Position numbers and translations under genes: made by a program. The notes under the pieces are model-generated. The model was not told the origin of the DNA and ran no database searches. It worked only from the letters and a program-made list of their open reading frames with translations. From NCBI RefSeq assembly GCF_026151205.1, contig NC_087083.1, forward strand, positions 3,548,536 through 3,612,535: a stretch of DNA of 64,000 bases, in the 5' to 3' direction. The stretch comes from Bolinopsis microptera (Eukaryota; Ctenophora; Tentaculata; Lobata; Bolinopsidae). Position 1 is the stretch's first letter, and each line of letters opens with the position of its first letter. Positions 3,001 to 63,188 of the stretch are shown here, one piece after another.

Positions 3001-6000
3001 CACGTGTAGCTCTCTCTTTGTAATCTGACAGATCTTTTCTTGAAAATTCCAATTCGTTTTGAGAAAGCTTCAGTTCGGACAATGTGCTGAAATGTGAAAT
3101 GTAAGGTGGCAACTTTAGATATAAGATGATAAGTAAAAATGCTCTCATTAAATGATGTCGCCCTAATTATTATATAGCACAAATGCGTTATGTATATAAA
3201 TAGTATACAGTATACAATACATAGGACTGAACGTCTTCTAGAACTTTGATTTAATTTTGCTTATAAAAGTTGAAACGTTTGGTCTTAGTTTCACATCCAG
3301 GAATTTGTGTAGTACTAATATATATAAAAAAATAATAATAGTATTATCTTATAGTTATTTTGGTCTAATGATTTATGATCATAATATTGTGAAGTTATAC
3401 ATTGTATGTATATAAGTTATACATTGTATGTATATAAGTTATACATTGTATGGATATAAGTTATACATTGTATGTATATAATGTATACATTGTATGTATA
3501 AGTTATACATTGTATGTATATAAGTTATACATTGTATGTATATAAGTTATACATTGTATGTATATAAGTTATACATTGTATGTATAAGTTATACATTGTA
3601 TGTATAAAGTGTATTGTACCCGGTATATCTGCGCTTCTCCTCTCTGAGTAATTGCTGTGTGTTGTGTAGTGTGTTAGTTACTTTTACTATTTGACACTGT
3701 AACTCTTCTTCTCGCTCCCTACTTTCACCCTGCAATAGTATAGTGCAGTGTAGTAACGAAGGACCCCGCTGACCCCGCAGTGTGGGGGGGGGGGGTTGGG
3801 CAGGGGGGAATCTTAGGGGGGGGGGCGCAAAATCGTCGTTTGAATGTGGGACAATTTTTAAAAACTTAACTGAGGTACTAGCAAAACTGCACGTTTTGCT
3901 CTAGAAACACACTTTCTTAAAGATTTTACCGGCATACCCTCTAAAATCACCTAATTTGTTCAATTTTATGGAGGGGCGCCAAAAGGGAAGGGGGCGCCAA
4001 CAGGAGGGCGCATTTTCGGCGGGGGGGGGGGGGGGGGGGGTGCCAACAGGCAACGTTTCGCCACTGGTATAGTGTATAGTTACTGTTACATTAGAACCAC
4101 AATACGTGTATATAAGGCCCCTAATGCAAGGCCCCTAATGTAAGGCCCCTAATGTAAGTCCCTAATGTAAGGCCCCTAATTTAAGGCCCCTAATGTAAGG
4201 CCACTAATGTAAGGCCCCTAATTTAAGGCCCCTAATGTAAGGCCCCTAATGTAAAGCCCCTAATGTAAGGCCCCATAATGTAAAGCCCCTAATGTAAGGC
4301 CCCTAATGTAAGGCCCCTAATGTAAAGCCCCTAATGTAAGGCCCCTAATGTAAGGCCCCTAATGTAAGGCCCCTAATGTAAGGCCCCTAAGAAGTGTTTA
4401 AGATGGCAAAAATGAAAAATAACGGTTTAGAAGGCTTGAAAAAGGTCGAATTGAAGGGCAATAAAACTGTTACCTGTATTTTAGAGAGAGATTCTTTGTA
4501 ATGTTCTACCAGTTCATTAGAAACCGTTACTATGGTTACTATGGTTACTATGGTAACCTGTACTTGAGAGAGATTCTTTGTAATTTTCTACAAGCTCATT
4601 AGAAACTGTTACCCTAGTTACTATGGTTACTATGGTTACTATGGTTACTATGGTTACTATGGTTACCTGTACTTTAGAGAGAGATTCTTTGTAATGTTCT
4701 ACCAGTTCATTAGAAACCGTTACTATGGTTACTATGGTTACTATGGTTACTATGGTTACTATGGTTACTATAGTTACTATGGTTACCTGTACTTTAGAGA
4801 GAGATTCTTTGTAATGTTCTACCAGTTCATTAGAAACCGTTACTATGGTTACTATGGTTACTATGGTAACCTGTACTTGAGAGAGATTCTTTGTAATTTT
4901 CTACAAGCTCATTAGAAACTGTTACCCTAGTTACTATGGTTACTATGGTTACTATGGTTACTATGGTTACTATGGTTACCTGTACTTTAGAGAGAGATTC
5001 TTTGTAATGTTCTACCAGTTCATTAGAAACCGTTACTATGGTTACTATGGTTACTATGGTTACTATGGTTACTATGGTTACTATAGTTACTATGGTTACC
5101 TGTACTTTAGAGAGAGATTCTTTGTAATGTTCTACCAGTTCATTAGAAACTGTTACCTCCTCTTTCAACTGGCTCAGTTCTCCGTGACAAGAACTGGACA
5201 CTCTCAACTCCTCCTCCATTCGTTTTGTATGCGCTGTAAAGATTAGTAGATAATTACCTAATTATTAATTACTTGCTATTTAATTAGTAACTAAATATTA
5301 ATTACTTGCTATTTTCGTTTCAACATTTCTCATCAATTCGTCATTTGTATTTCATTTTTATGAAAAAATGAAATACAAATAGAAATGAGGGGGGGAGGGG
5401 GAGGGGGCGGGTCAATTACCGGTCTGAGCTCCGAGCTCCGAGTCAGCCTCCGCTAGCCTTACTTTGAGAACTCCTATCTGAGTATCTTTAGCCTGCAAAA
5501 CATACCTTTACAATTAGTTAATAAGTTGATAAGCTAATTAATTAAGGTTTACAATTAGTTACCTAAATGGTTACTATGGTTACTATGGTTACTAAATGGT
5601 TACTATGGTTACTATGGTTACTAAATGGTTACTATGGTTACTATGGTTAATATGGTTACTATATGGTTACTAAATGGTTACTGTGGTTACTATGGTTACT
5701 ATAGTTACTGTGGTTACTATGGTTACTATAGTTACTATGGTTACTGTGCATATAATGGTAACTAAATGGTTACTATGGGTACTATTGACTAACAGTGAGG
5801 GCCTCCTTTAAATCAGCCTCAGTTCCCTTTATGCTTCTTATCAAGGACAGTTGTTTTGTTATTTCTTCTTCTCTTTCTTTCAGTTTCTTCTTCTGCTTCT
5901 CCTCCAGGATCTGCTGTGACTGCAACTTATCCTGAAATATCATTCTAATAATCATTTACAAAGCTTATTAGTGAGACTGCAACTTATCCTGAAATATCAT

Positions 6001-9000
6001 TCTAATAATCATTTACAAAGCTTATTAGTGAGACTGCAACTTATCCTGAAATATCATTCTAATAATCATTTATAAAGCTTATTAGTGAGACTGCAACTTA
6101 TCCTGAAATATCATTCTAATAATCATTTACAAAGCTTATTAGTGAGACTGCAACTTATCCTGAAATATCATTCTAATAATCATTTACAAAGCTTATTAGT
6201 GAGACTGCAACTTATCCTGAAATATCATTCTAATAATCATTTACAAAGCTTATTAGTGAGACTGCAACTTATCCTGAAATATCATTCTAATAATCATTTA
6301 CAAAGCTTATTAGTGAGACTGCAACTTATCCTGAAATATCATTCTAATAATCATTTACAAAGCTTATTAGTGAGACTGCAACTTATCCTGAAATATCATT
6401 CTAATAATCATTTACAAAGCTTATTAGTGAGACTGCAACTTATCCTGAAATATCATTCTAATAATCATTTACAAAGCTTATTAGTGAGACTGCAACTTAT
6501 CCTGAAATATCATTCTAATAATCATTTACAAAGCTTATTAGTGAGACTGCAACTTATCCTGAAATATCATTCTAATAATCATTTACAAAGCTTATTAGTG
6601 AGACTGCAACTTATCCTGAAATATCATTCTAATAATCATTTACAAAGCTTATTAGTGAGACTGCAACTTATCCTGAAATATCATTCTAATAATCATTTAC
6701 AAAGCTTATTAGTGAGACTGCAACTTATCCTGAAATATCATTCTAATAATCATTTACAAAGCTTAGTACTTACTAGTGAGTAGTGTGCCTCCTAATGTTT
6801 AATAAAATCTGTGGTTAAAAGGTCACACTAGTGCCTGTTAGTGTGAAAAATATTTACTATAATATAAGTTACATAAATTTTATGGTAGTCATGTACACAT
6901 AAAAAACTTACAATGTACATCAATATAATATGATTAATTCCTAATCATTTCGTATAAATGTACAACTTTAAAGTGAGAACATACCCTGTACGAACTAATT
7001 TTAGAAGATAAGAACCCAATCTCATCAGTTAGCTGAGTAACTTCTTGTTTAATCAGTTTATTTTCCAGCTCCAGTCTGTCAAAGTACTCTCCCCTCACCG
7101 CCTCTCCTTAGATAAAACAAGCTAAACGTAGATTATAAGGTAAGGTAATTCCGCTGTTATTTAGCGGCATTATTTAAAAACACCAGTTAATTAATGCTAA
7201 TAAATAATAACTAGTATATAATTAAAGTAGAGATCTGACTAACCATCCCCACTATCATCACTAAGCGACACCAGGTCCTGGGATGAAGGTACTATCTCTG
7301 GAGAGGAGTGAGATTCTTCTGAACCTGGGGTATTAAATAGTGGTAACTAGGTGGTAACTAGGTGGTAACTAGTGGTAACTAGTAGTAACTAGGTGGTAAC
7401 TAGGGGTAACTAGTGATAACTAGGTGGTAACTATGGTTATTAGTGGTAACTAGTGATAGCTAGTGGTAACTAGGTGGTAACTAGGTGGTAACTAGTGGTA
7501 ACTAGTGGTAACTAGGTGGTAACTAGGTGGTAACTAGTGGTAACTAGTGGTAACTAGTGGTAACTAGGTGGTAACTAGTGGTAACTAGGTGGTAACTAGT
7601 GGTAACTAGGTGGTAACTAGTGGTAACTAGGTGGTAACTAGTGGTAACTAGGTGGTAACTAGTGGTAACTAGTGGTAACTAGTGGTAACTAGTGGTAACT
7701 AGGTGGTAACTAGTGGTAACTAGGTGGTAACTAGTGGTAACTAGTGGTAACTAGGTGGTAACTAGGTGGTAACTAGGTGGTAACTAGTGGTAACTAGTGG
7801 TAACTAGGTGGTAACTAGTGGTAACTAGTAGTAACTAGTGGTAACTAGGTGGTAACTAGTGGTAACTAGTGGTAACTAGGTGGTAACTAGTGATAACTAG
7901 GTTGTAACTAGTGGTAACTAGGTGGTAACTAGTGGTAACTAGTGGTTACTAGGTGGTAACTAGGTGATAACTAGTGGTAACTAGTGGTAACTAGCAGTAA
8001 CTAGTGGTAACTAGGTGGTAACTAGTGATAACTAGGTGATAACTAGTGGTAACTAGTGGTAACTAGCAGTAACTAGTGGTAACTAGTGATAACTAGGTGG
8101 TAACTAGGTGGTAACTAGGTGATTACTAGTGGTAACTAGGTGGTAACTAGGTGGTAACTAGGTGGAAACTAGGTGGCAACTAGGTGGTAACTAGGTGGAA
8201 ACTAGGTGGCAACTAGGTGGTAACAAGGTGGTAACTAGTTGGTAAATAGTTGGTAACTAGTTGGTAACTAGTGGTAACTAGTGGTAACTAGTGGTAACTA
8301 GGTGGTAACTAGGTGGTAACTAGGTGGTAACTAGTTGGTAAATAGTTGGTAACTAGTTGGTAACTAGTGGTAACTAGGTGGTAACTAGGTGGTAACTAGT
8401 TGGTAAATAGTTGGTAACTAGTTGGTAACTAGTGGTAACTAGTTGGTAACTAGTTGGTAAATAGTTGGTAACTAGGTGGTAACTAGGTGGTAACTAGTTG
8501 GTAACTAGTTGGTAACTAGTGGTAACTAGTGGTAACTAGTGGTAACTAGTGGTAACTAGTGGTAACTAATGGTAACTATTTGGATTGATGGATTGAAAGC
8601 ACCCATCTCTGGGGAGCAATGAGACTGAAATACTATTAGTTAAATTAATTAATTAGATTAAGTGTATGTTAGCTGATTAGATAGATATCAGAATATTTAT
8701 ATAATTAGATGTTAGACTAGGAAATAATAAAAAGTTGTTTAAAGTATAAAGTAAAACCAGTGAGGAAGATGTTTTGTTCTCCAGGCAGAAGAGAGTTGTT
8801 CAGACTTGAGAACACATTCTTATCTTCCTCTTCTGAAATATTTATCAATTTAAAGGAAATTAAATTAAATGCTCAATCAATACAATTGTTTAACTTGTTA
8901 GTACAGTAAAACCCCGCGGTAAAGTGGGCTGTAGTACAGTGTACTAGTATAGTTACCATGGTAACTAGGTGAATCTTCCTCTTGAAGAGATTCAGCAGTT

Positions 9001-9074
9001 TTTTTGTCCACCTGATCCAAAAAAGCTTCTGCTTGATTAGCGAGATCAGTCAACGACAATGTCCATGCTGACAT
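1..9074 (-). CDS. GOLGA5: Golgin-84-like Golgi coiled-coil tether (partial, C-terminus off the left edge)
   Basis: Golgin-84 is a Golgi-membrane coiled-coil tether acting in intra-Golgi traffic. Exons joined by GT-AG junctions with matching phase: 8957-9074 (start; the donor may instead leave 8966), 8758-8832, 7244-7324, 6985-7100, 5794-5931, 5420-5492, 5100-5233, 3682-3729, 2993-3067 (another acceptor gives 3086), 1372-1469, 1208-1274, 495-599, 253-399, 1-69 (open). The first exon reads MSAWTLSLTDLANQAEAFLD, close to the vertebrate start MSWFVDLAGKAEDLLNRVD as I recall it. AKDTQIGVLKVRLAEAD, LSDYKERATRVLQ and SELEVKINSLTE line up, in order, with AKDSQLAVLKVRLQEAD, LIDYKQKATRILQ and SELENRLHQLTE of the vertebrate protein. 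The rest is charged heptad-like coiled coil. The stretch coded by 5420-3682 is about 35 residues shorter than in vertebrates unless extra exon copies (4474-5036) are used. The membrane anchor is outside the window. Introns are full of minisatellites and two transposons. Confidence 0.88.
652..1066. repeat. Minisatellite of about 10-11 bp in a GOLGA5 intron
   Basis: Tandem ggtaactaggt units with variants ggtaactaat and ggtaactatt, lying between the exons at 495-599 and 1208-1274. A related array is at 7335-8578. Confidence 0.95.
1813..2594. mobile_element. Mariner/Tc1-like miniature element
   Basis: Inverted ends start CAGGGTGG and share GGCCAAAAGTCAGTACCCAT; the right end carries a few extra bases inside the terminus. 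Each end is flanked by TA (1811-1812 and 2595-2596), the target duplication expected for the mariner/Tc1 superfamily. The 782-bp body has no transposase I can recognise. A 182-codon plus-strand frame (2168-2716) runs out of the element and shows no DDE motif, so I take the element as non-autonomous. It sits in a GOLGA5 intron. Confidence 0.8.
3390..3607. repeat. AT-rich 22-bp minisatellite
   Basis: About ten copies of a unit built on ataagttatacattgtatgt, in the GOLGA5 intron upstream of the exon at 2993-3067. Confidence 0.93.
3746..4066. mobile_element. hAT-like miniature element inserted next to a splice acceptor
   Basis: Same family as 18179-18482 and 37143-37432. It ends ...cgccactg on the right and starts cagtgtagtaacg on the left, a changed form of cagtggcgtaacg. 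The 8-bp direct repeats gtatagtg at 3738-3745 and 4067-4074 are a hAT-type target duplication. It contains G-rich runs, one about 20 bp. The insertion lies 7 bp beyond the AG (3730-3731) of the GOLGA5 exon 3682-3729. Confidence 0.9.
4108..4391. repeat. 14-bp minisatellite
   Basis: About 20 copies of aatgtaaggcccct with single-base variants, in the GOLGA5 intron. Confidence 0.95.
4474..5156 (-). repeat. Seven copies of a GOLGA5 exon end plus donor, separated by 9-bp repeats
   Basis: Copies at 4474-4530, 4558-4612, 4667-4723, 4787-4843, 4871-4925, 4980-5036 and 5100-5156 (the last is the 3' end of the real exon 5100-5233). Each intact copy reads on the minus strand VSNELVEHYKESLSKVQ followed by a GTAACC donor. 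Between copies lie runs of gtaaccata, nine bases, which read V-T-I without stops. The copies at 4558 and 4871 lack bases and are out of frame. A 313-bp higher-order period (4558 to 4871, 4667 to 4980, 4787 to 5100) shows a later block duplication. Confidence 0.9.
5560..5785. repeat. Degenerate tggttacta repeats
   Basis: Nine-base tggttacta units with tggttactaaa variants, next to the donor of the GOLGA5 exon 5794-5931. The same nonamer separates the exon copies at 4474-5156. Confidence 0.9.
5918..6766 (-). repeat. 57-bp tandem array made of a splice acceptor and exon start
   Basis: About 15 nearly identical 57-bp units. Read on the minus strand each carries the intron end ATTAGAATGATATTTCAG followed by the first bases GATAAGTTGCAGTC of the GOLGA5 exon 5794-5931. 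The exon thus has about 15 equivalent acceptors upstream of it. The 232-codon plus-strand frame across the array is a by-product of 57 being divisible by three. Confidence 0.95.
7335..8578. repeat. Long ggtaactagt minisatellite
   Basis: About 1.2 kb of 10-11-bp units (ggtaactagt, ggtaactaggt, later ggtaactagtt) filling the intron between GOLGA5 exons 7244-7324 and 8758-8832, with patches of local homogenisation. Confidence 0.96.
8577..8623 (-). pseudogene. Possible decayed duplicate of a GOLGA5 exon
   Basis: On the minus strand a TTTCAG acceptor is followed by TCTCATTGCTCCCCAGAGAT, similar to TCTCACTCCTCTCCAGAGAT in the exon 7244-7324. A possible donor abuts the ggtaac array. The 47-nt length would break phase between the flanking exons, which join in phase without it. 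Confidence 0.4.
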
Positions 9075-9651
9075 TCCCTATACTGAATTACTTTGTTAAA
9101 ATATAATATGTTATGTACTAAGATATTAAGATATTTAATAATATAACTTCTTGACAGTAATTTTGAACATATTATAAACATGTTTTGAAATAAAAACCTA
9201 TATCTAGTGGTAACTGAAAACTGTTGTTGAGGATGGCGTGGTTGATAGTATTAGTGTTGGGTATGTATCTAAAATATATATTTGGTCAAAAGATACTTAA
9301 ATCATGAGATTATTAGCCTTAGAGCTGAGAATTATTGATTATTACGAGAATTGTTCCTAATTAGCCTGATTGTAGTTACTTGAGAAGAAACTTTCCTTTA
9401 GGTTGGCTAATATTATAATTCCACAGCAGCTAATTAATAATTAAGCTGTGAGCTCAGTACAGAGTTGAGGGGGAGACCATTATATTGTGTGGGCGATATT
9501 TCCCCCAACAATCTTTGTGAGCTCATTACTTCACTGCAAACAAACCCCCTCACTATTTACACACCTGCACTTCTGTTCCCTATTATTGTAAACATATTGA
9601 TCCTGTGTAATCCTGTGTAATCCTCTGTAATCCTGTATATTGTGAGTCATC
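9075..9651. other. Intergenic space between divergent GOLGA5 and P450 genes
   Basis: The 577 bp between two start codons on opposite strands must hold both promoters. A plus-strand ATG at 9234 opens a short hydrophobic reading (MAWLIVLVL) ending at a GTATGT donor; it could be an alternative first exon, but I find no matching acceptor. Near 9598-9640 there are four tcctgtgtaa-type repeats. I see no clear TATA box. Confidence 0.5.
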
Positions 9652-11518
9652 ATGTTCCTTATCGTGTGCCTCATCACAACCTACCTTATCTGGAAAACGT
9701 ATCTTATAATCAATACGATGTTAAATAGAAAGAGTTTAAGTGCAATCCCACAACCGCCCATTGATAACTTCTACTTTGGACACGAGCCGTCCATTACCAA
9801 GGCCAAAGAAGAGAATAGATTCCTAGACCTGTTTGTTGAATGGGTCAACACATACGGGACAACAGTGCTGTTCTGGATCGGAGCCCGACCCTTTGTCTTT
9901 ACAGCAGACCCTGAAATGCTGAAACAGTGCGCCACTGATCTCAAGTCTTTCTCAAAAGTCAACAATCTCCCCAACAGACATTTGTTCGGACAGAAGATAA
10001 TAGGGACAGACAGTATTCTCAGTGGAGGGGGGCTCAAGTGGGCGGTGAAGAGAAAAGTAATGTCGCGTTTCTTTGCAAAGACCAACATGAAGGAGATGTT
10101 TGAAGCAGCAAAGCCCCACATGGAGGGACCAGAGTTGGGGAGATGGAGGGAGCAAGTTGGGAGAGGAGAAGTACTGGACCTGCATGAAGAGCTATCCATC
10201 ACCTTCTCTTCTTATCTCCAGGTCCTAGGACTATCAGACTTCCTCCCAGCTAAAACCATTGCTAGAAACGTGTTCCTTCTTCTAGAGGCTATCCCCAAAC
10301 AGCTCTTCCAAAGATGGTCCTATCTATTATCCTCTGACAAGACTAAAATGTTTGCTCTGATCAAGAAGATGAGAAGTGATACAAAACAGACTGTAGTGGA
10401 AAGAATAGAGGAGATGAAGAACAACCCTGACGACACAATCCCATCTCTAGACATGTTAGGACACCTGATAGAGGCTAACCAGAGTAACGATGGTCAGACT
10501 TCTAACTCCGAGGCAAAGGTAGTTGAGGGAGTGGTGGACGATGTGATGACCGTGTGTCTTGTTCTGGATAACATGGTTAAGCAGATATGTGCTCTTTTCA
10601 TGTTCCTAGAAAATGAGCAGGAAGTACAAGGGAAAATGATGGAGGAGCTCCGCAACACCGATATAGAGGATTTCAATGACCTGAACAATTTGAAATACAC
10701 AGAGAAGTGCATTCTAGAGTCTCTCAGGATGGGGCCGGCACTGTTGAGGGGCACCAGAACTTACAAGTTAGTGAAATATTTAGTTTTACAAATCTAATTA
10801 GTAAATAGCGAGTCACTTGTTACAGAATTTAATTTTTGTTCCAGTCTAACCTATACTTGGTGTGGTTGAATTATGTGGAATTTATACTTTCTGCAACCAA
10901 TTTTTCTCAATATATATTATAAAATGATCACTCTTCACTGCAATTGCAATAAAATGCTATAACAGAGGCTGGCAACCTTACTTCATAAACTTGATTATCT
11001 GTAATATGGTGAGACAAAATCAACTGTTCCATGAAAAATGAAAAATATCAACAAAAAAATGTCCATATTAAGAGGGAATCAATTGAGTGTTACATAAAAT
11101 AACTAAATATTTTGCGTGCTTAGCAGACCTATCTAATGTTTTCAGGACCGCCACAAACAAGAGGTTCGGACCATACGTAGTGAACACAAGAAATGTTAGA
11201 GTTCACTTCTCGGAGTACGTAATGCAGATGAACCCGGATTATTGGCCAGAACCTAAAAAGTTTAACCCAGAAAGATGGCAGCCAGGATTCAACCCAGAGC
11301 CCTTCTCCTACATGCCATTCTTCGTAGGAAGTAGAGGCTGTCTGGGTAAACATATGGCTATGATGATGATGAAGTTAACGCTTTCTGTGCTGGCTAAAAA
11401 CTTTGAGTTGCAGCAGAGTTTTAACAAGAAGGAACCGCCCACTATAAATCAGAACATGGCTGTGATGCGCATTATCAACAGAGTAGATTGTTTGATAACA
11501 CCCTTAGCAGTAAGTTGA
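9652..11518 (+). CDS. Cytochrome P450, CYP46-like, with an unusual I-helix
   Basis: Two exons, 9652-10766 and 11146-11518, join in phase (GT donor in ttacaa|gttag, ttcag acceptor) to give 495 residues, the normal P450 length. Residues 1-20 form a hydrophobic ER signal anchor, followed by the proline hinge IPQPP. The K-helix ESLR is at about 356-359, a PERW-type meander follows, and the heme-binding loop FFVGSRGCLG places the iron-ligand cysteine at about 437. The layout and the segments FLDLFVEWVNTYG and FNPERW resemble cholesterol 24-hydroxylase (CYP46) more than other families I know, so a sterol or fatty-acid substrate is a guess. The I-helix oxygen-activation motif AGxxT is not present; the aligned stretch reads TVCLVLDNMVKQI (about 298-312). 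Only one intron, unlike its neighbours. No frameshift or stop. Confidence 0.92.
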
Positions 11519-11872
11519 GTAGTTGGACAATTTCTATTGAAATTTTCATGTTTTTAAAGTTTCTATAACTGATCATCGGTAAAGAATATTTTATGGCCTT
11601 AAAAAAAGAACAATGAGCGTGATGATTATGATATGTGATAATACACAGTATTATATACATAGAATTTCACTGGACAGAAATTAAGCGCCTAACAGGTTTT
11701 TAGATTAACGAACAGAAACAGAACACTAACTTCTAACATGATTGTTATGTTGAAGAAGCAATATATTATGTACCTCTCTGTTAATACACCAAACTCTTAT
11801 GAAATGTTATGACTATACTGATCTACTGATATTTGTATGCCAGCTTTACTGTCTTATTATGTTGAGGTTTAA
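11519..11872. other. Downstream region of the P450 gene
   Basis: AT-rich presumed 3' UTR and spacer with no coding or repeat feature that I recognise. Confidence 0.4.
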
Positions 11873-12120
11873 CCAGTGGCGTAAAGTTGCCTGTTGCCCC
11901 CCCTCCTTAAAATTGAACAAATTAGGTGATTATTTGTAGGTTTACAACCTACCAGGACGCGCCGAGTTGGACTCAGATATTTTACGAGTATCACCCGTTA
12001 AGTGATTATAGGGCATATGCCGGTAAAATCTCTAATAAACTGTGTTTCTAGAGCAAAACGCACAGTTTTGCTAGTACTTAAGTTAAGTTTTTCAAAATTG
12101 TCCCACATTCAAAGACGGTT
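11873..12120. mobile_element. Damaged hAT-like miniature element with a nested insertion
   Basis: Starts with the family terminus cagtggcgtaaagttgcctg and retains the core containing gagcaaaacgcacagttttg and tgtcccacattcaaa. The right terminus is missing. A 66-bp sequence at 11936-12001 (gtaggtttacaacctac to cacccgttaa) interrupts it and is a member of the GC-rich family at 12491-13062. Confidence 0.75.
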
Positions 12121-13062
12121 ATATTTTTGTCTGCTTTAATTGGTACTAAAATTGTTGTTTTCTTGAAATTGTTGACTTTCTTTCACTTTTAGTAATTGAG
12201 AACAGTACAAATTAAAAAACAAATATTGACTCTTGAACACATTATTGTGAATCTTCGGCCGTAAAGTAAAGGTAAACTTTTTTGTTTCATTTTGTAACAG
12301 ACTGAAGAAATATATCGAAAATTCATATGATTTTGTGATCCTATAAAAAAAATTGTAAAGCAATTCTGCCAGACTCACTCAATACAAACATTGCTTCCAT
12401 TATAAACCACTTGTCCAAATTTTAAAAATCTTGTGGATTATGAAAGTAAACGTGTCATTTGATGTATTGTATACACTAGTTCTGAATAATTTAACGGGTG
12501 ATACTCGTAAAATATCTGTTCCATATTATATTGGACCGTCGACGAGTCCAACTCGGCGCGCGTCCTGGCCTGGTAGGTTGTAAACCTACAAATATATTCC
12601 AAATTATGCCCATTTGTAAATATGAAAATTTCTGAAGAGTAATTTCAAATTTGCCAGATTTGATGAGCTTTTTGCCCAATTACAATGACCAATTAGTCAG
12701 TTAACTGAAAATGGTATTATTGAGTCATTCATTATTATTTATAGGAAGTCAAAAAAAATGAAAGAAATCATATATTTCCATTTTCGAAATTGACGATGTC
12801 AAACTTTCAAAATCTTTCCCTTGCGAAGCAAAACAACTAATAACGTCATTGGTCATGTGAACAATAATGATAGTTTGCGCGGCGCCTTTTTTTCTTATGT
12901 GACGCGAATTTATGCCTCATGTTGTGGGCTTGACGGATGTTACTAGTTTAAATTTCTTTGTAGGTTTTCAACCTACCAGGACGCGGACGCGCGACGCGCG
13001 CCGAGTTGGACTCGTCGACGGTCCAATATATGGAACAGATATTTTACGAGTATCACCCGTTA
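11936..13062. repeat. Inverted and direct copies of a short palindrome-headed element
   Basis: Copies at 11936-12001 (plus), 12491-12592 (minus) and 12957-13062 (plus). Each has a foldback head such as gtaggttttcaacctac, a GC-rich core with gccgagttggactcgtcgac, and a tail tattttacgagtatcacccg. The first two are in opposite orientation and could be the ends of one element with an AT-rich centre. Confidence 0.7.
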
Positions 13063-13770
13063 AAAATTTCTTCGAAGTAGCGCGCGCCGCGTTTCCTTCT
13101 CGAAATGCCTGCGATGGCACGTGCTACGAAGTAGCGCGCGCCGGGCCAGATCATTAACAATGGTCAAGTTGTGGGCTTGCCTTACCTGGGTATCCCAGGC
13201 TATAATGGTGATCATAAAAATAAAAATAATGCTGTTCGTTAATGGGCGAGATGCACCACTGGGATCGCCAAGGCAAGCGAGCGGCAAAAAATTTATAACC
13301 GATGTTACTCGTCTAAATTTTTTCGAAGTAGCGTGCGCCGCTTAGTCTTACTTCTCGAAATGTTAATGTTATTAGCACGATGCAAGTGCTACAAATTAGT
13401 AGCGTGCGCCGGGCTAGTCCGTTAAAAATGGACAAAATTGACATTTTCAATTAAGGTTGAATATTCATTTAATTTTTACTGGGCCGCGCTCAGCCTGTCA
13501 TTCCGCCAAATCTTTATTCGTTAATGAACATAATAGCCTGGGGTCCTCAGGTAATTTAATTTTAGCACGCTCGTATAGCCGTTGTGTGGAAATGAAAATA
13601 GCATTGAACCGTACTGTACGGTTAAAAACACCCCTTCTACATATTCCAACTTGACCCGGCGCGTGCTACTTTGAAGCACTTTACCTCGGGTCATAATAAT
13701 AATATTTCGCGAGAAGAAAGCGGCGTGCGCTACTTCGAAGAAATATAGACGAGTATCATCCATCAAATCC
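13063..13770. repeat. Cluster of ttcgaagtagcgcgcgccg elements
   Basis: Three related copies near 13066-13148 (plus), 13315-13415 (plus) and 13655-13745 (minus) share cgaagtagcg(c/t)gcgccg and ttctcgaaat. Between them at 13479-13552 lies gggccgcgctcagcctgtca with ataatagcctggggtcctca, which recurs at 29861-29970 and in part at 32291-32320. No protein or RNA function recognised. Confidence 0.65.
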
Positions 13771-14546
13771 CAATTTTATTTATCTATTTGTGTTGGGACA
13801 AGATAAATGCATTTAGTTCAAAACTTCACAAATTATTTATATTAAATACCAACCGTATCGTATCGAAAATTGAAATTAACTTACAATTTAGCAAATTCAA
13901 ATCAATTTTATTTAATTGTGGAAGAAATTTTCAATTGTGGAACATTTCATTCTAAGAACACCATATTTTATTTGCTGCATGCTGCACTCAAGATAAAACC
14001 TCAACCTTGTAATATGTTGACGGACACTTAACACACATAAAAAGAACTTTAACATTTAAACCTATCATAGGAATATGGTAGATACCGGGGCAGGAAGTGC
14101 ACACCCTAGTACTGATATCACGGTGTTATGTCACAGAAGGATGCTAGGACCTTATTAATATGAAACAGACAAGCTATTAAACCTGTTATTCGGAATGAAT
14201 GTTAAATCGTACAAATCAACAGGGTGTTTCAAGGCTCGTGTCCAAAATGTAAATCGTACAAATCTAGATAACCGCCAGCTAATTTTATTCACTTCTGTTG
14301 TGGGAACAGAATGTTAAGTTTCTCCACTGAACAAAGCGCTTATTTAACACAGAACCAACTTTATCGAGTTAAACTGTAACAGTGCCGCAGTAACACACTG
14401 TTACACATTGTAACACCTTTCTTCAAATGAAACCTCAATCAACCAGGACAGTCTATACCATTAATCTAACAACTCTTTGAAACATGATTTCAAGTGAGAG
14501 CAATCTGAAGAATATTAACGAGGAAGTTAAAAAACACAACTGATTT
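13771..14546. other. AT-rich spacer before the RING gene 3' end
   Basis: No exon-like open frame or obvious repeat. It probably contains the 3' UTR of the minus-strand RING gene. Confidence 0.4.
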
Positions 14547-17524
14547 TCAGGTGAGAGCCTCCTGAATATCAGTTCTGCAAAAGGGACACTTTCTGGAACA
14601 GGTGGTGAGCCAGCGATCTATACAGTACTCATGAAACTCATGTTCACAGGGCAGCACACGTAGTGTCTCTCCGACACTGTAGTGACCTGTAATATGGTAA
14701 CTTGTTACAAAACACAATGTAACTATGGTAACTTGTTACAAAACACAATGTAACCATGGTAACTTGTTACTAAACACAATGTAACTATGGCAACTTGTTA
14801 CAAAACGCAATTTAACTATGGCAACTTGTTACTAAACGCAATGTAACCATGGTAACTTGTTACAAAACACAATGTAACCATGTTAACTTGTTACAAAACA
14901 CAATGTAACTATGGCAACTTGTTACAAAACGCAATTTAACTATGGCAACTTGTTACTAAACGCAATGTAATCATGGTAACTTGTTACAAAACACAATGTA
15001 ACCATGGTAACTTGTTACAAAACACAATGTAACCATGGTAACTTGTTACAAAACACAATGTAACCATGTTAACTTGTTACAAAACACAATGTAACTATGG
15101 CAACTTGTTACAAAACACAATGTAACTATGGCAACTTGTTACAAAACACAATGTAACTATGGCAACTTGTTACAAAACACAATGTAACCATGGTAACTTG
15201 TTACAAAACACAATGTAACTATGGTAACTTGTTACAAAACACAATGTAACCATGGTAACTTGTTACAAAACACAATGTAACCATGTTAACTTGTTACAAA
15301 ACACAATGTAACTATGGCAACTTGTTACAAAACGCAATTTAACTATGGCAACTTGTTACTAAACGCAATGTTAGCAGGGTGATTTGTTACAATACACAAT
15401 GTAACTATGGTAACTTGTTACAAAACACAATGTAACCATGGTAACTTGTTACAAAACACAATGTAATCATGGTAACTTGTTACAAAACACAATGTAACTA
15501 TGGTAACTTGTTACAAAACACAATGTAACCATGGTAACTTGTTACAAAACACAATTTAACCATGGTAACTTGTTACAAAACACAATGTAACTATGGTAAC
15601 TTGTTACAAAACACAATGTTACCATGGTAACTTGTTACAAAACACAATGTAACCATGTTAACTTGTTACAAAACACAATGTAACTATGGCAACTTGTTAC
15701 AAAACGCAATTTAACTATGGCAACTTGTTACTAAACGCAATGTTAGCAGGGTGATTTGTTACAATACACAATGTAACTATGGTAACTTGTTACAAAACAC
15801 AATGTAACCATGGTAACTTGTTACAAAACACAATGTAACCATGGTAACTTGTTACAAAACACAATGTAATCATGGTAACTTGTTACAAAACACAATGTAA
15901 CCATGGTAACTTGTTACAGAACACAATGTAACCATGGTAACTTGTTACAAAACGCTATGTTACTATAGTAACTTGTTACAAACCACAATGTAACCAAAAC
16001 ACAATGTAACTATGGTAACTTGTTATAAAACACAATGTAACCATGGTAACTTGTTACAAAACACATTGTAACCATGGTAATTTGATGGTACAATGTTGGA
16101 ATGTTAACAATGTAAGAATGTTCTTTTTCTACTAACCAAGACAAATGGAGCATTTCTTTTCCCGGCTCATATCTGCTTCACTAGCAACTTTAGTAGGAGC
16201 GCGGTCTAACACGTTCTTATCCACCAGAGGCGGGTTAGGAGTGGGTGCTATTCTGTGTAATAACTGAAATAGTTTTATATTTCACTTTATAAATGTAGTG
16301 TATTGAGGAGACGGGGGGAGATGATACTAATAATAGTCTATTAGTTGTAATAGTCTATTTCAAGTTGGACTTTTCTGGAAGACTACTCCACATATTGGGA
16401 CTGTACCATGATAACACACTTGTAAATACTGATTATAAACCTCAAAAGAGTCCGTGAGAAGTCCGTTTAAGTTTTGGAGATCTCGTCGGAGTGTTGTTAT
16501 CCGGTCCCTTAGGCTAGTCATGTGCAGTAACTCCTCGTGGGCAACAACCCCCCGTCTCTACCCAAATAATACGGTGAGTGCTGCGTGACATAATGCCTGA
16601 ACTAAACGCAGTGAGGCTAGCACGCAAACTAACACTACTAGTAACTAGAACTGTGTGTTCGTGCAAACTAACACTACTAGAACTGTGTGTTCGTGCAAAC
16701 TAACACTACTTTAACTGTGTGTTCGTGCAAACTAGCACTACTAGTAACTAGAACTGTGTGTTCGTGCAAACTAACACTACTAGAACTGTGTGTTCGTGCA
16801 AACTAACACTACTTTAACTGTGTGTTCGTGCAAACTAACACTACTACAACTGTGTGTTCGTGCAAACTAACACTACTAGAACTGTGTGTTCGTGCAAACT
16901 AACACTACTTTAACTGTGTGTTCGTGCAAACTAACACTACTTTAACTGTGTGTTCGCGCAAACTAACACTACTTTAACTGTGTGTTCGTGCAAACTAACA
17001 CTACTAGAACTGTATTTACTTACAGTTGGTATGTTGATAGGAGGAGCACCAATAGAGTCGCCCGCACTTGAAATGTTCCTGCAAATAAAATTAATGAATA
17101 ATATAATAAGCTTAAAGTTATTATAGATTTGCTACTTACGGATGACAGAATATAATATGTAGTTTATCTGCACTACATACACACTAATGTCTGTACCTTG
17201 CGTTGATTGGATCTTGAGAAGCTTGAAAAGTAACATCCTGAAAAATGATAATTTAACTCATGTATTTCTAACATGAACATTGATCATCACTTTTAAAAAT
17301 GTTGGGGCAATGCTACTGAAACCCAAATTGGGCCACTGCTATTAATTGTGCACCGATTTGACTTTTAAAATGATGTTATCAGTTTGGTTTTGCTCAATAG
17401 CAATATCTCCCCTCCTTACCAAGTGTCGACTGTATGATCGCAGGCGCCTGGGGTTCGAATGGTTTGTGACTCTGGTCAGGGGGCTAACAATAACTCCTTC
17501 ACTGGTAAGGTCGCGCATTACATT
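14547..17524 (-). CDS. RING-H2 finger protein, probable E3 ubiquitin ligase (5' end uncertain)
   Basis: Five exons join in phase on the minus strand: 17420-17524, 17197-17237, 17024-17078, 16137-16263 and 14547-14686 (stop TGA at 14547). The C-terminus is a C3H2C3 RING: CSIC, then [14 protein letters not shown], then CPFC, with all eight zinc ligands present and the finger split by one intron after the second cysteine. RING-H2 domains of this type recruit an E2 enzyme and transfer ubiquitin. The upstream part is basic and Ser/Pro-rich ([18 protein letters not shown]) without another domain or membrane segment. These exons give 155 residues. Codon 3 of the first exon is ATG and could be the start, but the exon has a good acceptor (tttcag), so a further 5' exon is likely; a candidate on the same strand ends at 18654 or near it. 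The layout recalls short C-terminal RING-H2 ligases; no orthologue assigned. Confidence 0.82.
14690..16085. repeat. 30-bp minisatellite in the RING gene intron
   Basis: About 46 units of the type ggtaacttgttacaaaacac + aatgtaacca, starting 3 bp beyond the acceptor AG of the last exon. Several hundred-base blocks are repeated as groups (for example the gcagggtgatttgttacaat variant occurs twice). Confidence 0.95.
16622..17012. repeat. About 30-bp minisatellite beside a RING gene donor
   Basis: Units of gaactgtgtgttcgtgcaaa + ctaacactacta. The last unit runs directly into the donor of exon 17024-17078 (actgtatttacttac), so the edge of the array is the splice junction. Confidence 0.92.
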
Positions 17525-18178: not shown

Positions 18179-18482
18179 CAGTGGCGTAATGAAGGGCCCC
18201 GCTGACCCCGCTGTGCAGGGGGGCGCCGTCTTAGGGGGCGCCAAATCGTCGTTTGAATGTGGGACAATTTCGAAAACTTAACTAAAGTACTAGCAAAACT
18301 GCGCGTTTTGCTCTAGATACACACTTTTTTAGAGATTTTACCGGCGTATCCTCTAAAATCACCTAATTTGTTCAAATTTAGGGAGGGGCACCAAAAGGGG
18401 AGGGGGCGCCAACAGGGGGGCGCCTTTTCGGCGGGGGGGGGGGGGGGGGGGGGGGGCGCCAACAGGCAACGTTACGCCACTG
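18179..18482. mobile_element. hAT-like miniature element, reference copy
   Basis: Perfect terminal inverted repeats cagtggcgtaa / ttacgccactg, 304 bp, with 8-bp target duplications caagtact at 18171-18178 and 18483-18490. Inner part has gggggcgcc blocks and a G-run of about 23 bp. Codes for nothing; needs a hAT transposase from elsewhere. Confidence 0.95.
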
Positions 18483-52310: not shown

Positions 52311-52329
52311 ACAGTCGTTTCCATGCATG

Positions 52330-52975: not shown

Positions 52976-52977
52976 CC

Positions 52978-53433: not shown

Positions 53434-53852
<419 letters not shown>

Positions 53853-54036
53853 ATACAGTATAATAATATTTGCATTATCGCGATGTAGATTGTATACTGT
53901 AGATTGTATGTAGCTCCCATATGGTCACGTGTACAAAGATAAAAAGTCTCCAGAATCCATGTGATTGTGTGCCTGGTTTACTTTAATGTTAGTGCTAGTT
54001 TCGTTCTCTTATATTTTTTCAGCTGATCAAACCACA

Positions 54037-56500: not shown

Positions 56501-59500
56501 ATGATGCCTAAAACAGGAAAGCTGGAATGGGGACGATATTCAGAGTACCTTTCGTTCAAACTATTATTTGACTTTGATGAATTGTAAGTTAGATATTATC
56601 TAGTTTGTGTTGTGATTTGTGAAAACAATAATGAAATGAACAAGCCATAGTTCACTAAGGGCATCCTATAAACGATATGAGAGTTAACAAATTTAATTTA
56701 CTCAAGGAATTTCTTACCTGCGTCCGCGTGGACAATTAAACATTAAACCACAAACCATGTCAAAAATTAAAACTAAAAATGTAACCAATAGTAATCAATA
56801 GTTACCGCTAGTAACCACTAGTAATCATTAGTAACCACTAGTAACCAATAGTAACCAATAGTAACTACTTATAGTTACCAATAGTAACCACTAGTAACCG
56901 CTAGTAACCATGTGTGTCCAGGAGTCGGAGAGAGGAGAAGCACGTGATGAAGGTATTAGAGAGGAACTCTACTGAACTTCTTACAGCAGCAGTAGCCGCC
57001 TTCCTCACCCCTTTAGTGGGGTTGTTACAGTACAAGAGTGTAGCTCTCTTCATCATCCTAACAAGAGTACTGACACTCATCAATACTCCTACATATCACA
57101 ACAAACACACACTGGTAAGAGTACTGACACTCATCAATACCCCTACATATCACAAACAAACACACACTGGTAAGAGTACTGACACTCATCAATACCCCTA
57201 CATATCACAAACAAACACACACTGGTAAGAGTACTGACACTCATCAATACCCCTACATATCACAAACAAACACACACTGGTAAGAGTACTGACACTCATC
57301 AATACTCCTACATATCACAAACAAATACACACTGGTAAGAGTACTGACACTCATCAATACCCCTACATATCACAAACAAACACACACTGGTAAGAGTACT
57401 GACACTCATCAATACCCTACATATCACAAACAAACACACACTGGTAAGAGTACTGACACTCATCATTACCCCTACATATCACAAACAAACACACACTGGT
57501 AAGAGTACTGACACTCATCAATACTCCTACATATCACAAACAAACACACACTGGTAAGAGTACTGACACTCATCAATACCCCTACATATCACAAACAAAC
57601 ACACACTGGTAAGAGTACTGACACTCATCAATACCCTACATATCACAAACAAACACACACTGGTAAGAGTACTGACACTCATCAATACCCCTACATATCA
57701 CAAACCAAACACACACTGGTAAGAGTACTGACACTCATCAATACCCCTACATATCACAAACAAACACACACTGGTAAGAGTACTGACACTCATCAATACT
57801 CCTACATATCACAAACAAACACACACTGGTAAGAGTACTGACACTCATCAATACTCCTACATATCACAAACAAACACACACTGGTAAGAGTACTGACACT
57901 CATCAATACTCCTACATATCACAAACAAACACACACTGGTAAGAGTACTGACACTCATCAATACTCCTACATATCACAAACAAACACACACTGGTAAGAG
58001 TACTGACATCATCAATACTCCTACATATCACAAACAAACACACGCTGGTAAGAGTACTGACACTCATCAATACTCTACATATCACAAACAAACACACACT
58101 GGTAAGAGTACTGACACTCATCAATACTCCTACATATCACAAACAAACACACACTGGTAAGAGTACTGACACTCATCAATACTCCTACATATCACAAACA
58201 AACACACGCTGGTAAGAGTACTGACACTCATCAATACTCCTACATATCACAAACAAACACACACTGGTAAGAGTACTGACACTCATCAATACTCCTACAT
58301 ATCACAAACAAACACACACTGGTAAGAGTACTGACACTCATCAATACTCCTACATATCACAAACAAACACACACTGGTAAGAGTACTGACACTCATCAAT
58401 ACTCCTACATATCACAAACAAACACACACTGGTAAGAGTACTGACACTCATCAATACTCCTACATATCACAAACAAACACACACTGGTAAGAGTACTGAC
58501 ACTCATCAATACTCCTACATATCACAACAAACACACACTGGTAAGAGTACTGACACTCATCATTACCCCTACATATCACAAACAAACACACACTGGTAAG
58601 AGTACTGACACTCATCAATACCCCTACATATCACAAACAAACACACACTGGTAAGAGTACTGACACTCATCAATACTCCTACATATCACAAACAAACACA
58701 CACTGGTAAGAGTACTGACACTCATCAATACTCCTACATATCACAAACAAACACACACTGGTAAGGGTACTGACACTCATCAATACTCCTACATATCACA
58801 AACAAACACACACTGGTAAGGGTACTGACACTCATCAATACTCCTACATATCACAAACAAACACACACTGGTAAGAGTACTGACACTCATCAATACTCCT
58901 ACATATCACAAACAAACACACACTGGTAAGAGTACTGACACTCATCAATACTCCTACATATCACAAACAAACACACACTGGTAAGAGTACTGACACTCAT
59001 CAATACTCCTACATATCACAAACAAACACACACTGGTAAGAGTACTGACACTCATCAATACTCCTACATATCACAAACAAACACACACTGGTAAGAGTAC
59101 TGACACTCATCAATACCCCTACATATCACAAACAAACACACGCTGGTAAGAGTACTGACACTCATCAATACTCCTACATATCACAAACAAACACACACTG
59201 GTAAGAGTACTGACACTCATCAATACTCCTACATATCACAAACAAACACACGCTGGTAAGAGTACTGACACTCATCAATACTCCTACATATCACAAACAA
59301 ACACACGCTGGTAAGAGTACTGACACTCATCAATACCCCTACATATCACAAACAAACACACACTGGTAAGAGTACTGACACTCATCAATACCCCTACATA
59401 TCACAAACAAACACACACTGGTAAGAGTACTGACACTCATCAATACCCCTACATATCACAAACAAACACACACTGGTAAGAGTACTGACACTCATCATTA

Positions 59501-62500
59501 CCCCTACATATCACAAACAAACACACACTGGTAAGAGTACTGACACTCATCAATACCCCTACATATCACAAACAAACACACACTGGTAAGAGTACTGACA
59601 CTCATCAATACTCCTACATATCACAAACAAACACACACTGGTAAGAGTACTGACACTCATCAATACTCCTACATATCACAAACAAACACACACTGGTAAG
59701 AGTACTGACACTCATCAATACTCCTACATATCACAAACAAACACACACTGGTAAGAGTACTGACACTCATCAATACTCCTACATATCACAAACAAACACA
59801 CACTGGTAAGAGTACTGACACTCATCAATACTCCTACATATCACAAACAAACACACACTGGTAAGAGTACTGACACTCATCATTACCCCTACATATCACA
59901 AACAAACACACACTGGTAAGAGTACTGACACTCATCAATACCCCTACATATCACAAACAAACACACACTGGTAAGAGTACTGACACTCATCAATACTCCT
60001 ACATATCACAAACAAACACACACTGGTAAGAGTACTGACACTCATCAATACTCCTACATATCACAAACAAACACACACTGGTAAGGGTACTGACACTCAT
60101 CAATACTCCTACATATCACAAACAAACACACACTGGTAAGGGTACTGACACTCATCAATACTCCTACATATCACAAACAAACACACACTGGTAAGAGTAC
60201 TGACACTCATCAATACTCCTACATATCACAAACAAACACACACTGGTAAGAGTACTGACACTCATCAATACTCCTACATATCACAAACAAACACACGCTG
60301 GTAAGAGTACTGACACTCATCAATACTCCTACATATCACAAACAAACACACGCTGGTAAGAGTACTGACACTCATCAATACCCCTACATATCACAAACAA
60401 ACACACGCTGGTAAGAGTACTGACACTCATCAATACCCCTACATATCACAAACAAACACACACTGGTAAGAGTACTGACACTCATCAATACCCCTACATA
60501 TCACAAACAAACACACACTGGTAAGAGTACTGACACTCATCAATACTCCTACATATCACAAACAAACACACACTGGTAAGAGTACTGACACTCATCAATA
60601 CTCCTACATATCACAAACAAACACACACTGGTAAGAGTACTGACACTCATCAATACCCCTACATATCACAAACAAACACACACTGGTAAGAGTACTGACA
60701 CTCATCAATACCCCTACATATCACAAACAAACACACACTGGTAAGAGTACTGACACTCATCAATACCCCTACATATCACAAACAAACACACACTGGTAAG
60801 AGTACTGACACTCATCATTACCCCTACATATCACAAACAAACACACACTGGTAAGAGTACTGACACTCATCAATACTCCTACATATCACAAACAAACACA
60901 CACTGGTAAGAGTACTGACACTCATCAATACTCCTACATATCACAAACAAACACACGCTGGTAAGAGTACTGACACTCATCAATACTCCTACATATCACA
61001 AACAAACACACACTGGTAAGAGTACTGACACTCATCAATACTCCTACATATCACAAACAAACACACACTGGTAAGAGTACTGACACTCATCAATACTCCT
61101 ACATATCACAAACAAACACACACTGGTAAGAGTACTGACACTCATCAATACTCCTACATATCACAAACAAACACACACTGGTAAGAGTACTGACACTCAT
61201 CAATACTCCTACATATCACAAACAAACACACAATGGTAAGAGTACCGACACTCATCAATACTCCTCACACACTGGTAAAAATTTGGTGCAAAAAACAACA
61301 ACTTTTAAGAAACATGAAACTTTATTTTCGCGCTTTATCTAATATCTTTGTCAATCAATTAATTGAATGATGTGATAATCAAACACTGTACTTGCAGTGA
61401 ATATGAAGATGTTAGCAAGTGCTGTTGGGTGCTTTGTAGCATGTGCTTTTCAAACCTGGACTAATGTTTCTGCGTGGTGAGAATAATTACTTTCACTAGT
61501 TACCAATAGTAACCACTGGTTACCACTAGTAACCAATAGAAACCAATATTCTAAAACTTTGTAGTAACACTATTATAGTAACACTATTCACTAATAATAA
61601 CCATTAGTCACCATTAGTAACCAATAGTAACCACTGGTTACCACTAGTAACCAATATTCTAAAACTTTGCACTTTTATAGCTACACTATTCACTAATGGT
61701 AACCATTAGTCACCAATAGTAACCAATAGTAACCAATAGTAACCACTAGTAACCAATAGTCACCACTAGTAACCACTAGTAACCAATATTAACCAATAGT
61801 TACCACTACTATGTTTTTCTACGCGCAGGACTGTTGGATGTTGGATGGTACGAGTAGCTGTATTAACATTCGCTTATAGTCGAGCTACTGTAACATTCTC
61901 TGAATACCTCCAGTGAGTAACCTCTTATTACTTTTATTAGGGTACACCCCTTTTAGTAACCACTAGTAACCACTAGTAACCACTAGTAACCACTAGTAAC
62001 CACTAGTAACCACTAGTAACCACTAGTAACCACTAGTAACCACTAGTAACCACTAGTAACCACTAGTGACCACTAGTAACCACTAGTAACCACTAGTAAC
62101 CACTAGTGACCACTAGTAACCACTAGTAACCACTAGTAACCACTAGTAACCACTAGTAACCACTAGTAACCACTAGTAACCACTAGTAACCACTAGTAAC
62201 CACTAGTCATATCCACAGAAGAGTGAAAGGTCGACTGAGTTCGAAAAAAATAAGTGATATAAAGGAAGAAAGAAAAGGAACGGAGTTGTCGTTCAACAGA
62301 CTTAACCTCTACGCAGCCGGTCCAGTACTCGCCTTTCTAGCCCTTCTAGCATTCGATCTAGTTTTATCCTCCGTTACAACTTACAGTGTTGATATGGTAA
62401 GTTACCAATAGTAACTGCTAGTAACCAATAGTAACCAATAGTAACCAATAGTAACCAATAGTAACCAATAGTAAGCACTAGTAACTATTGGTTACTAGTT

Positions 62501-63188
62501 TTATCCTTCGTTACAACTTACAGTGTTGATATGGTAAGTTACCAATAGTAACTGCTAGTAACCAATAGTAACCAATAGTAACCAATAGTAACCAATAGTA
62601 AGCACTAGTAACTATTGGTTACTAGTTTTATCCTTCGTTACAACTTACAGTGTTGATATGGTAAGTTAGTTTACTTAGACACTTTTTAGTTATAATATTA
62701 AGTGATTCCATACTGTTTGAATTAAATAGTGTAAAAATAAGGCTTCAGTAAGAGAATCTTTAAAATGTTCAAACGTACACGCACCAAAACGAAACCTCAC
62801 GTTCTTTATCTAAAATCGTTATATTTGTTTATTTATGTATATCATTTAAATGATTGCAATTAAGTATTTTAAGGCGTTTATAGTGACCCTAGTAGTAATC
62901 AATACAATTATTACAATAATTTATTCAAGTTAAAGTAATAATTTTAATGTTTACTTTTTAACTGATTCTCAGGCGTTCCAGCTAAAAACCGTAGGAGTGC
63001 TCACAGTTCTTCTATTTATGAACAGTCAGTTTATAATCGCAAAGAGTAACTACTATGACAGGGATCACATCACACAGGTGTTGGAAATGTACGGGGAGAC
63101 CTTGCTGTCTCTCTATTATCTTCCCAAATCTGCTTTCTTCTATAGTTTCAGTGGAGACACTTTGCAAACTAAAGTATCTGCTGACTAA
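56501..63188 (+). CDS. Multi-pass membrane protein of unknown family
   Basis: Six exons: 56501-56583, 56922-57114 or -57169, 61398 or 61409-61476, 61829-61912, 62219-62396, 62973-63188 (stop TAA). Two combinations keep phase: donor at 57169 with acceptor before 61398 (295 residues), or donor at 57114 with acceptor before 61409 (273 residues). The protein starts MMPKTGKLEWGRYSEYLSF and has about five or six hydrophobic helices: LLTAAVAAFLTPLVGLL with LFIILTRVL, MLASAVGCFVACAF, VRVAVLTFAY, LYAAGPVLAFLALLAFDLVL and VGVLTVLLFMNSQFIIA. A charged loop (KKISDIKEERKG) precedes the fifth exon's helix and the tail is polar. I do not recognise the family. AATAAA lies 140 bp after the stop. Intron 2 is almost entirely a 55-bp array carrying donor sites, and intron 5 holds two extra copies of the exon 5 donor. 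Confidence 0.8.
57065..61262 (+). repeat. 55-bp array of exon 2 end plus donor, about 76 copies
   Basis: Each unit reads actgacactcatcaatactc + ctacatatcacaaacaaaca + cacactg followed by gtaagagt. The first unit is the coding end of exon 2 (LTLINTPTYH) and its donor at 57115; all later units repeat the donor. As 55 is not divisible by three, each step changes phase, and the frame closes after about two units. Confidence 0.96.
61495..61805. repeat. agtaaccaat repeats, intron 3
   Basis: Ten-base agtaaccaat / agtaaccact units mixed with a duplicated segment containing ccaatattctaaaactttg. Confidence 0.9.
61955..62208. repeat. Pure agtaaccact array, intron 4
   Basis: About 25 ten-base units ending 10 bp before the acceptor of exon 62219-62396. 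Confidence 0.96.
62357..62668 (+). repeat. Three copies of exon 5 end plus donor
   Basis: The exon 5 end (tagttttatcctccgttaca ... gttgatatg) and its gtaagt donor at 62397 recur with donors near 62534 and 62659, separated by agtaaccaat units. Confidence 0.93.

Follow-up and report, generated by a model that had tools for sequence, protein, structure and literature searches.

Minisatellites that repeat exon-intron boundaries in the ctenophore Bolinopsis microptera

The stretch analysed here, hereafter the window, comprises 64,000 nucleotides (C12:3548536-3612535) of the assembled genome (264.65 Mb, 232 contigs) of the lobate ctenophore Bolinopsis microptera, and includes the genes for GOLGA5 (golgin-84), a B4GALNT-like protein (GT12) and a small membrane protein. 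Arrays were detected using Tandem Repeats Finder (TRF), and the splice sites inside their units were identified by reading both strands directly. A TRF array was present at each of the seven places where a preliminary description, made from the sequence alone, had placed repeated exon edges, and a splice site lies inside every unit, six of the arrays being built on a donor and one on an acceptor (Table 1). The assignment of these arrays to the three genes, on both strands, was likewise borne out. The splice dinucleotides are intact in all 183 units scanned in eight arrays, a proportion that is biased upwards by the choice of units by similarity. Constraint inferred from unequal mismatch rates in the exonic and intronic parts of the units was dropped from consideration, as changes in the length of G runs inflate the intronic rate.

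The exon calls were compared with protein sequences. The GT12 model includes 13 exons and encodes 502 aa with no stop; the product has a Glycos_transf_2 domain and a Ricin_B_lectin match under the curated cut-off, and it aligns with B4GALNT1 across the junction of exons 12 and 13. P0001 ('uncharacterized protein LOC134824255 [Bolinopsis microptera]') matches the GT12 model apart from substitutions and a 21-nt mini-exon (41797-41777), which was rejected as exon 2 is joined directly to exon 4 in P0001. The residues of P0001 are those of a GT12 copy outside the window in which the donors of exons 2, 5, 10, 11 and 12 are arrayed, and each GT12 exon edge is present once in P0001 and once in P0002, a homologue sharing 79 % identity; P0003 agrees. 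The aligned part of GOLGA5 fits P0065 ('golgin subfamily A member 5-like [Bolinopsis microptera]') and P0066 from Mnemiopsis, and the residues of P0065 are those of a GOLGA5 copy outside the window that carries the acceptor array (3-4 units) and lacks the donor array. The membrane-protein gene, for which no Pfam match was found, fits the homologues P0062 and P0063 at the junction repeated in the 55-mer array. Save for P0064, only the exon-proximal copy is found in the compared proteins (models and homologues; the state of the array is known for P0001 and P0065 only). As these proteins hold only the copy adjacent to the exon body, the rest of each array would be intron. P0064 corresponds to a 544-bp public contig that first encodes the membrane-gene exon, at 100 % over 55 aa, and then continues into a shorter second repeat copy and the intron. 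It may stem from an allele or a relative carrying two copies, or its assembly may be collapsed; read through one extra copy, it looks like genomic or intron-retaining sequence.

Table 1. Exon-intron-boundary arrays and associated features in the window (first 15 rows) and in random loci (last four rows). A slash in a sequence marks the splice junction; the second copy is that of the ~70-kb duplication described in the text.
Feature	Position	Strand	Unit and copies	Splice site	Second copy	Basis
GOLGA5 donor array	4469-5156	-	seven exon-like blocks (by eye)	CTAAAGTACAG/GTAACC; as many as 57 nt from the end of the exon, CAG/GTAAC and intron 9-mers; real donor 5100/5099	single copy, L029:3532-3593	TRF and reading
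GOLGA5 exon with amplified 3' edge	5100-5233	-				P0065, P0066
GOLGA5 acceptor array	5918-6765	-	57 bp, 14.9 units	ATTTCAG/GATAAGTTGCAGTC; 43 nt of intron 3' end and 14 nt of exon	~3-4 units by eye, L029:4358-4565	TRF and reading
GOLGA5 exon with amplified 5' edge	5794-5931	-				protein comparison (P0065, P0066)
GT12 exon 12 donor array	34168-35644	-	70 bp, 21 units	TTAGAG/GTAAGT; ~61 exon nt per unit; real donor 35576/35575	~80 units judged from span C12:3516831-3522497 (~5.7 kb)	
GT12 (B4GALNT-like) exon 12	35576-35794	-				gene model, B4GALNT1 alignment, P0001
GT12 exons 10 and 11 with 129-bp intron	35943-36295 (intron 36035-36163)	-			intron L038:801-1474	
GT12 exon 5 donor array	38498-38993	-	33 bp, 15 units	CACTAA/GTAAGT; ~19-25 exon nt; real donor 38969/38968	3.4 units, L038:3203-3314	
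Second 33-mer block, GT12 exon 4-5 intron, adjoining a duplicated exon 4 piece	40395-40853	-	13.9 units		none in TRF list of L038	
Intronic array near GT12 exon 4 acceptor	41512-41738	-		ends 7 bp from acceptor		
GT12 exon 2 donor array	41862-42312	-	26 bp (TACA/GTAAGTTT), 17.5 units	TACA/GTAAGT; just ~4 exon nt	28.3 units, L038:4074-4796	
Membrane-protein exon with amplified 3' edge	56922-57114	+			exon 1 nt longer	
Membrane-protein gene donor array	57063-61265	+	55 bp, 76.5 units (~4.2 kb)	ACACTG/GTAAGAG; 52 exon nt; first donor 57114/57115	at least 27.9 units (L042)	
Intronic array near membrane-protein gene acceptor	61954-62207	+		ends 11 bp from acceptor		
Donor array	62357-62668	+	127 bp; three junction copies (exon copy and two)	GATATG/GTAAGTTACC; real donor 62396/62397	137-bp unit (L040)	
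Donor array	L013					eye only
Donor array, Ig-domain gene	L015					reading
Acceptor array, predicted protein without Pfam match	L019:1-2151					reading
Two donor arrays, TFIIE-alpha gene	L020					reading

The window lies inside a region (C12:3516831-3631535) with a direct duplication of ~70 kb, and includes parts of both copies. GT12, the membrane-protein gene and GOLGA5 occur twice in equal order, as does a P450 gene (by position in locus L029), and the aligned DNA is 88-99 % identical. The copies could be either paralogues or unpurged haplotypes in tandem. The 11 GT12 exons compared are 96-100 % identical, and the reading frame is the same in both copies. Between the copies, be they alleles or paralogues, the arrays exhibit length instability like that of the 'mirages' of amphioxus, tandem repeats at exon-intron boundaries that are considered below, and the numbers or lengths of units differ (Table 1). 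Three junction arrays are confined to one copy, namely the GOLGA5 donor array in the window and the donor arrays of GT12 exons 10 and 11 in the other copy (L038). Presence in one copy is seen also within introns, as the array at 4113-4390 and the 58-mers at 39110-41365 are without a counterpart among the TRF arrays listed for L029 and L038. The preliminary description had seen in such arrays a route to new exons and length variants; length variants are indeed visible between the two copies, while new exons were not seen.

The array-free GOLGA5 junction in L029 includes a 9-bp direct repeat, AGGTAACAG, with arms 57 bp apart, one of which is the donor. This repeat flanks the segment amplified in the window copy. 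Within the 260-bp piece, all other direct repeats with a spacing of 40-90 bp are shorter, and it is one likely seeding repeat.

Further repeats were observed around these genes. The preliminary description had listed other arrays that begin or end within about 10 bp of a junction; the one at 41512 lies 7 bp and that at 61954-62207 lies 11 bp from an acceptor, and those at 14690 and 16622, judged by eye, are intron arrays that stop near junctions in a RING-H2-like gene (KCSICL ... CPFCR, also by eye) at 14550-17080 on the (-) strand. A 44-bp array in GT12 intron 1 (42438-42986) contains several AGTAAGT words and is not located at a junction, and the word GTAAC/GTTAC is common to the arrays at 653-1063, 7340-8578, 14694-16084, 37789-38205, 41512-41738 and 61497-62207, some with GTTACCATGGTAAC. 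A DNA search with the array at 4474-5156 returned related repeats across many contigs. A dispersed element of ~265 bp is found at 18179-18442 and 37169-37432 in opposite orientations and is 86-88 % identical to L029:3109-3377. The window also includes Ty3/gypsy-like frames at 22027-28071 (rve and SH3 in 22027-23658) and a LINE-like (long interspersed nuclear element) frame at 46951-49914 (RVT_1 and endonuclease).

The frequency of junction arrays elsewhere in the genome was estimated using 20 random loci of 10 kb (200 kb), the first 20 of 180 drawn from eight contigs, which lie on seven. TRF arrays cover 39 % of the window and a mean of ~14 % of these loci. Genes were predicted using a custom hidden Markov model that was first trained on genes of the window and then retrained on what it predicted. 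Its accuracy was gauged by Pfam alone, with six of seven hand-picked predicted proteins or parts matching a family at E<=1e-4, and it overlooked the L013 exon and the RING-H2-like gene in the window. Five junction-spanning arrays were found in the 200 kb, and a further candidate (L022:1729-2578) was set aside as the predicted exon is doubtful. Units that cross a real exon-intron boundary, the feature by which a mirage is defined, occur in seven arrays in the window, two in L038 and five in random loci. Both 5' and 3' boundaries are affected, the acceptor arrays being 5918-6765 and L019:1-2151 and the rest donor arrays.

Enrichment was examined after collapsing arrays to about one unit. The collapsed median length is 214 bp for the 113 introns predicted in the random 200 kb, and 203 bp for the 90 introns kept. 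Units <9 bp, the loci L011, L012 and L023, the second part of L019 and the 3' part of L020 were excluded before counting. The ~31 kb of real introns kept include 38 TRF arrays versus one in shuffled introns (157 kb, arrays collapsed), so the arrays are in excess of chance. Under a null in which arrays may overlap junctions as freely as they overlap introns (the tolerance null), junction-spanning arrays are not in excess, either in the sample (5/44, with 5.1-7.2 expected) or in the window (7/26, with 5.6-7.8 expected). Hand edits were made for this null: the L013 and L019 junction arrays were added, their intron lengths being guesses (300 and 400), L020:7307 was set to intronic, and the exon 12 and 62357 window arrays were corrected.

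These observations lead us to conclude that the arrays are probably exon-intron-boundary minisatellites of the amphioxus mirage kind and nearly neutral, of which the exon-proximal copy would be the one that is spliced. A short direct repeat would seed a tandem duplication that by chance covers a splice site, and slippage or unequal exchange would then multiply the duplicated segment. The spliceosome would keep to the copy adjoining the exon body, that is, the first donor or the last acceptor, and the other copies would be removed as intron, leaving the array nearly neutral. When introns are short and minisatellites very active, many arrays must land on junctions. The preliminary description had suggested that junction copies are tolerated because any one can be spliced, and this suggestion is supported, as the exon-proximal copy is the one held by the compared proteins and the spanning counts match random placement in short introns.

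Several observations weigh against this interpretation. The evidence for use of a single copy is at the protein level, from NCBI protein models and homologues, and only P0001 (for the GT12 donors) and P0065 (for the GOLGA5 acceptor) are traceable to array-bearing copies. Repeats of >=9 bp were found in 26 % of random pieces, so that AGGTAACAG is telling by its position and not by its existence, and at the array-free GT12 exon 11 junction the repeat at the unit ends is 5 bp, no longer than nearby ones. Finally, the arrays of the sample are not spread evenly. Those that span a junction or lie <=20 bp from one number 22/44 when 10.2-12.1 are expected (P<=0.0003), and only one array lies 40-120 bp from a junction versus 10.1 expected. 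An excess near the edge together with this depletion is not predicted by neutral uniform birth.

The excess near junctions was examined further. Among the 38 wholly intronic arrays in the sample, 17 are <=20 bp from a junction (5.2 expected) and 11 are <=10 bp away (2.7 expected); when no loci were dropped, the figures were 19 (5.7 expected) and 12 (3.0 expected) of 43 arrays. The excess is seen in introns of <=600 bp (12/17, 4.3 expected) and >600 bp (5/21, 0.9 expected), and for arrays scoring >=100 (6/17 versus 2.3 expected, P 0.009). In the window the excess of spanning or <=20 bp arrays is weak (16/26 versus 10.1-12.1 expected, P 0.01-0.07). Before the hand corrections, the tolerance null gave 24/45 versus 14.3 in the sample and 14/25 versus 11.3 in the window (P 0.17). 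There is thus a modest and unexplained extra tendency of arrays to begin within ~20 bp of a junction. The striking pattern in the window is roughly that expected from short introns and numerous arrays, and random loci show a junction bias beyond tolerance.

One explanation for this bias is that the near-edge arrays are decayed mirages, which formerly took in exon bases and in which selection maintains the exonic copy while the intronic copies have drifted and been homogenised away from it. The near-edge arrays of L027 and L017 start inside the donor motif, the depletion at 40-120 bp marks near-edge arrays as a separate class, and homogenisation sparing the boundary copy is described for an amphioxus mirage in the accessible part of PMC3087553. 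However, the sum of spanning and near-edge arrays still exceeds the null, which points to births that are non-uniform even so, and we regard decay as conceivable but not as the likelier course.

Alternatively, tandem duplications could arise more often at exon-intron borders through some mechanism coupled to transcription or splicing, such as R-loops, nicks or nucleosome edges; the preliminary description had proposed an amplifying process at these borders, for example R-loops or replication slippage linked to splicing signals. A hot spot would be consistent with the edge excess at 10-30 bp in random loci, in both intron size classes and for strong arrays alone, and with the three junction arrays confined to one gene copy. 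Yet the spanning arrays are not in excess, the edge excess in the window is weak, and arrays present in only one copy also lie within introns. Moreover, exact short direct repeats are no denser at donors than inside introns, 5- and 6-mers being rarer there, and the idea that splice words supply extra microhomology was abandoned, with 1585 5-mer repeats per million pairs at donors versus 2357 in introns. A mutational hot spot of this sort appears somewhat unlikely; the enrichment of array edges within 20 bp of junctions, named as a test in the preliminary description, was observed in the 20 random loci and speaks for it, and the weak excess in the window speaks against it. The proposed border process is neither shown nor dismissed. 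Tolerance accounts for much of the pattern, and a junction-linked bias of birth may be superimposed on it.

It could also be supposed that arrays are kept as spare splice sites are useful, either for alternative isoforms or as a buffer against mutation. In the window copy of the membrane-protein gene, the first donor (57114/57115) leads into exon 2 out of frame with an immediate stop, and the second donor, 55 nt further on, restores the frame. This is a single case, though, and the 1-nt difference in the exon could be an assembly error; the restored frame may represent a real rescue, a dying copy or such an error. Given also the wide variation in copy number between the gene copies and the lack of extra copies in the compared proteins of this and other species, save P0064, we consider such a benefit improbable. 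A 1-nt deletion was noted in this exon copy (window 57063-57169). An assembly artefact, with over-expanded repeats or falsely duplicated haplotypes, is very improbable, since, though two copies in tandem on one contig are what unpurged haplotypes would produce, unit sequences vary within most arrays, several junctions are arrayed in both copies, the same structure is found in random loci on other contigs, and tandem haplotypes would nonetheless be real alleles.

The two GT12 copies also differ in the position of an intron. In the window, exon 10 ends CTAG/GTTAAT and exon 11 starts CTAG/GCAGGAAC; the corresponding junctions in L038 read CTAGGCAG/GTAGTG at the end of exon 10 and GCAG/GAAC at the start of exon 11. 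The intron is therefore 4 nt further on in L038, with the local encoded protein unchanged and the flanking exons 96-99 % identical between copies. The introns themselves (129 and 674 bp) had no mutual match at E<=1, and that in L038 holds an array in whose unit the opening bases of exon 11 are linked to the final ~60 of exon 10. All ten introns between the 11 exons compared are present in both copies, nine in the same position and one shifted, and no gain of an intron in a formerly continuous exon was found among them. A shift of 4 nt with loss of all detectable intron similarity bears on the reality of intron sliding.

This kind of array is already known, from the mirages of amphioxus and from human IFI6, and here seems to be common in a ctenophore. 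The Adh3 mirage of amphioxus reportedly shows somatic instability. Turri et al. 1995 (NAR 23:1854) are said, going by the title, to have described a minisatellite at the IFI6 donor that provides multiple splice donors. According to the accessible parts of PMC3087553 and PMC3902484, mirages were found in the amphioxus genes for Adh3, the globins BflGb6 and BflGb9 and troponin C, with similar repeats in PGBD5; units are 10-160 bp, splicing is reported to be undisturbed and copy number varies with haplotype. The Bolinopsis arrays resemble those described there in their minisatellite-like units, which include exon bases and cover a 5' or 3' splice site, but are larger (76 units in ~4.2 kb and ~80 units in ~5.7 kb), occur at five per random 200 kb and, in some cases, are absent from a near-identical gene copy. 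For human IFI6 (6-16), a passage in PMC4526556 that cites the original work states that the minisatellite supplies several splice donors, downstream units reportedly being used, whereas at the protein level the exon-proximal copy alone is seen in Bolinopsis.

Changes in introns have been connected with exon-edge duplication before. As far as the available portions of these papers go, near intron pairs in Drosophila point to tandem duplication of exon edges as a way in which intron positions change (PMC2891723), the idea of Rogers, cited in PMC3087553, is that introns are gained by tandem duplication of proto-splice sites, and the very existence of intron sliding is disputed for mammals (PMC7730772). 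Human segmental duplications, as partly seen in PMC2812944, include internal tandem repeats at exon-intron borders that differ in number between recent paralogues, and 27 intron modifications, some of them novel introns. Unlike intron gain by tandem duplication as outlined there, the introns here pre-exist and one slid 4 nt between near-identical copies; unlike in the human duplications, new introns were not observed here, and both copies of GT12 have the same frame. No earlier report of ctenophore exon-intron-boundary arrays was found in the titles and the openings of abstracts of the papers listed, a set that leaves most subscription papers uncovered and absence from print unproven.

Extrapolation from five arrays per 200 kb gives ~6,600 in 265 Mb (Poisson range ~2,000-15,000). 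As exon-edge minisatellites in other organisms are, in the literature partly available to us, scattered (amphioxus, one human gene, some human paralogues), their commonness in a ctenophore means that they are no lancelet oddity. Gene annotation and short-read assembly will be affected in such genomes. The extra copies seem to be harmless intron with fast gain and loss, and may have a role in intron remodelling. A bolder possibility, which we consider unlikely as it stands, is that ctenophore junctions are birthplaces of minisatellites, with thousands of arrays that keep copying splice sites and whose turnover replaces intron sequence and slides introns within the time in which near-identical copies diverge. 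If this were true, intron sliding would become directly observable. The ctenophore genome is one in which the birth, growth and splicing of junction arrays can be traced.

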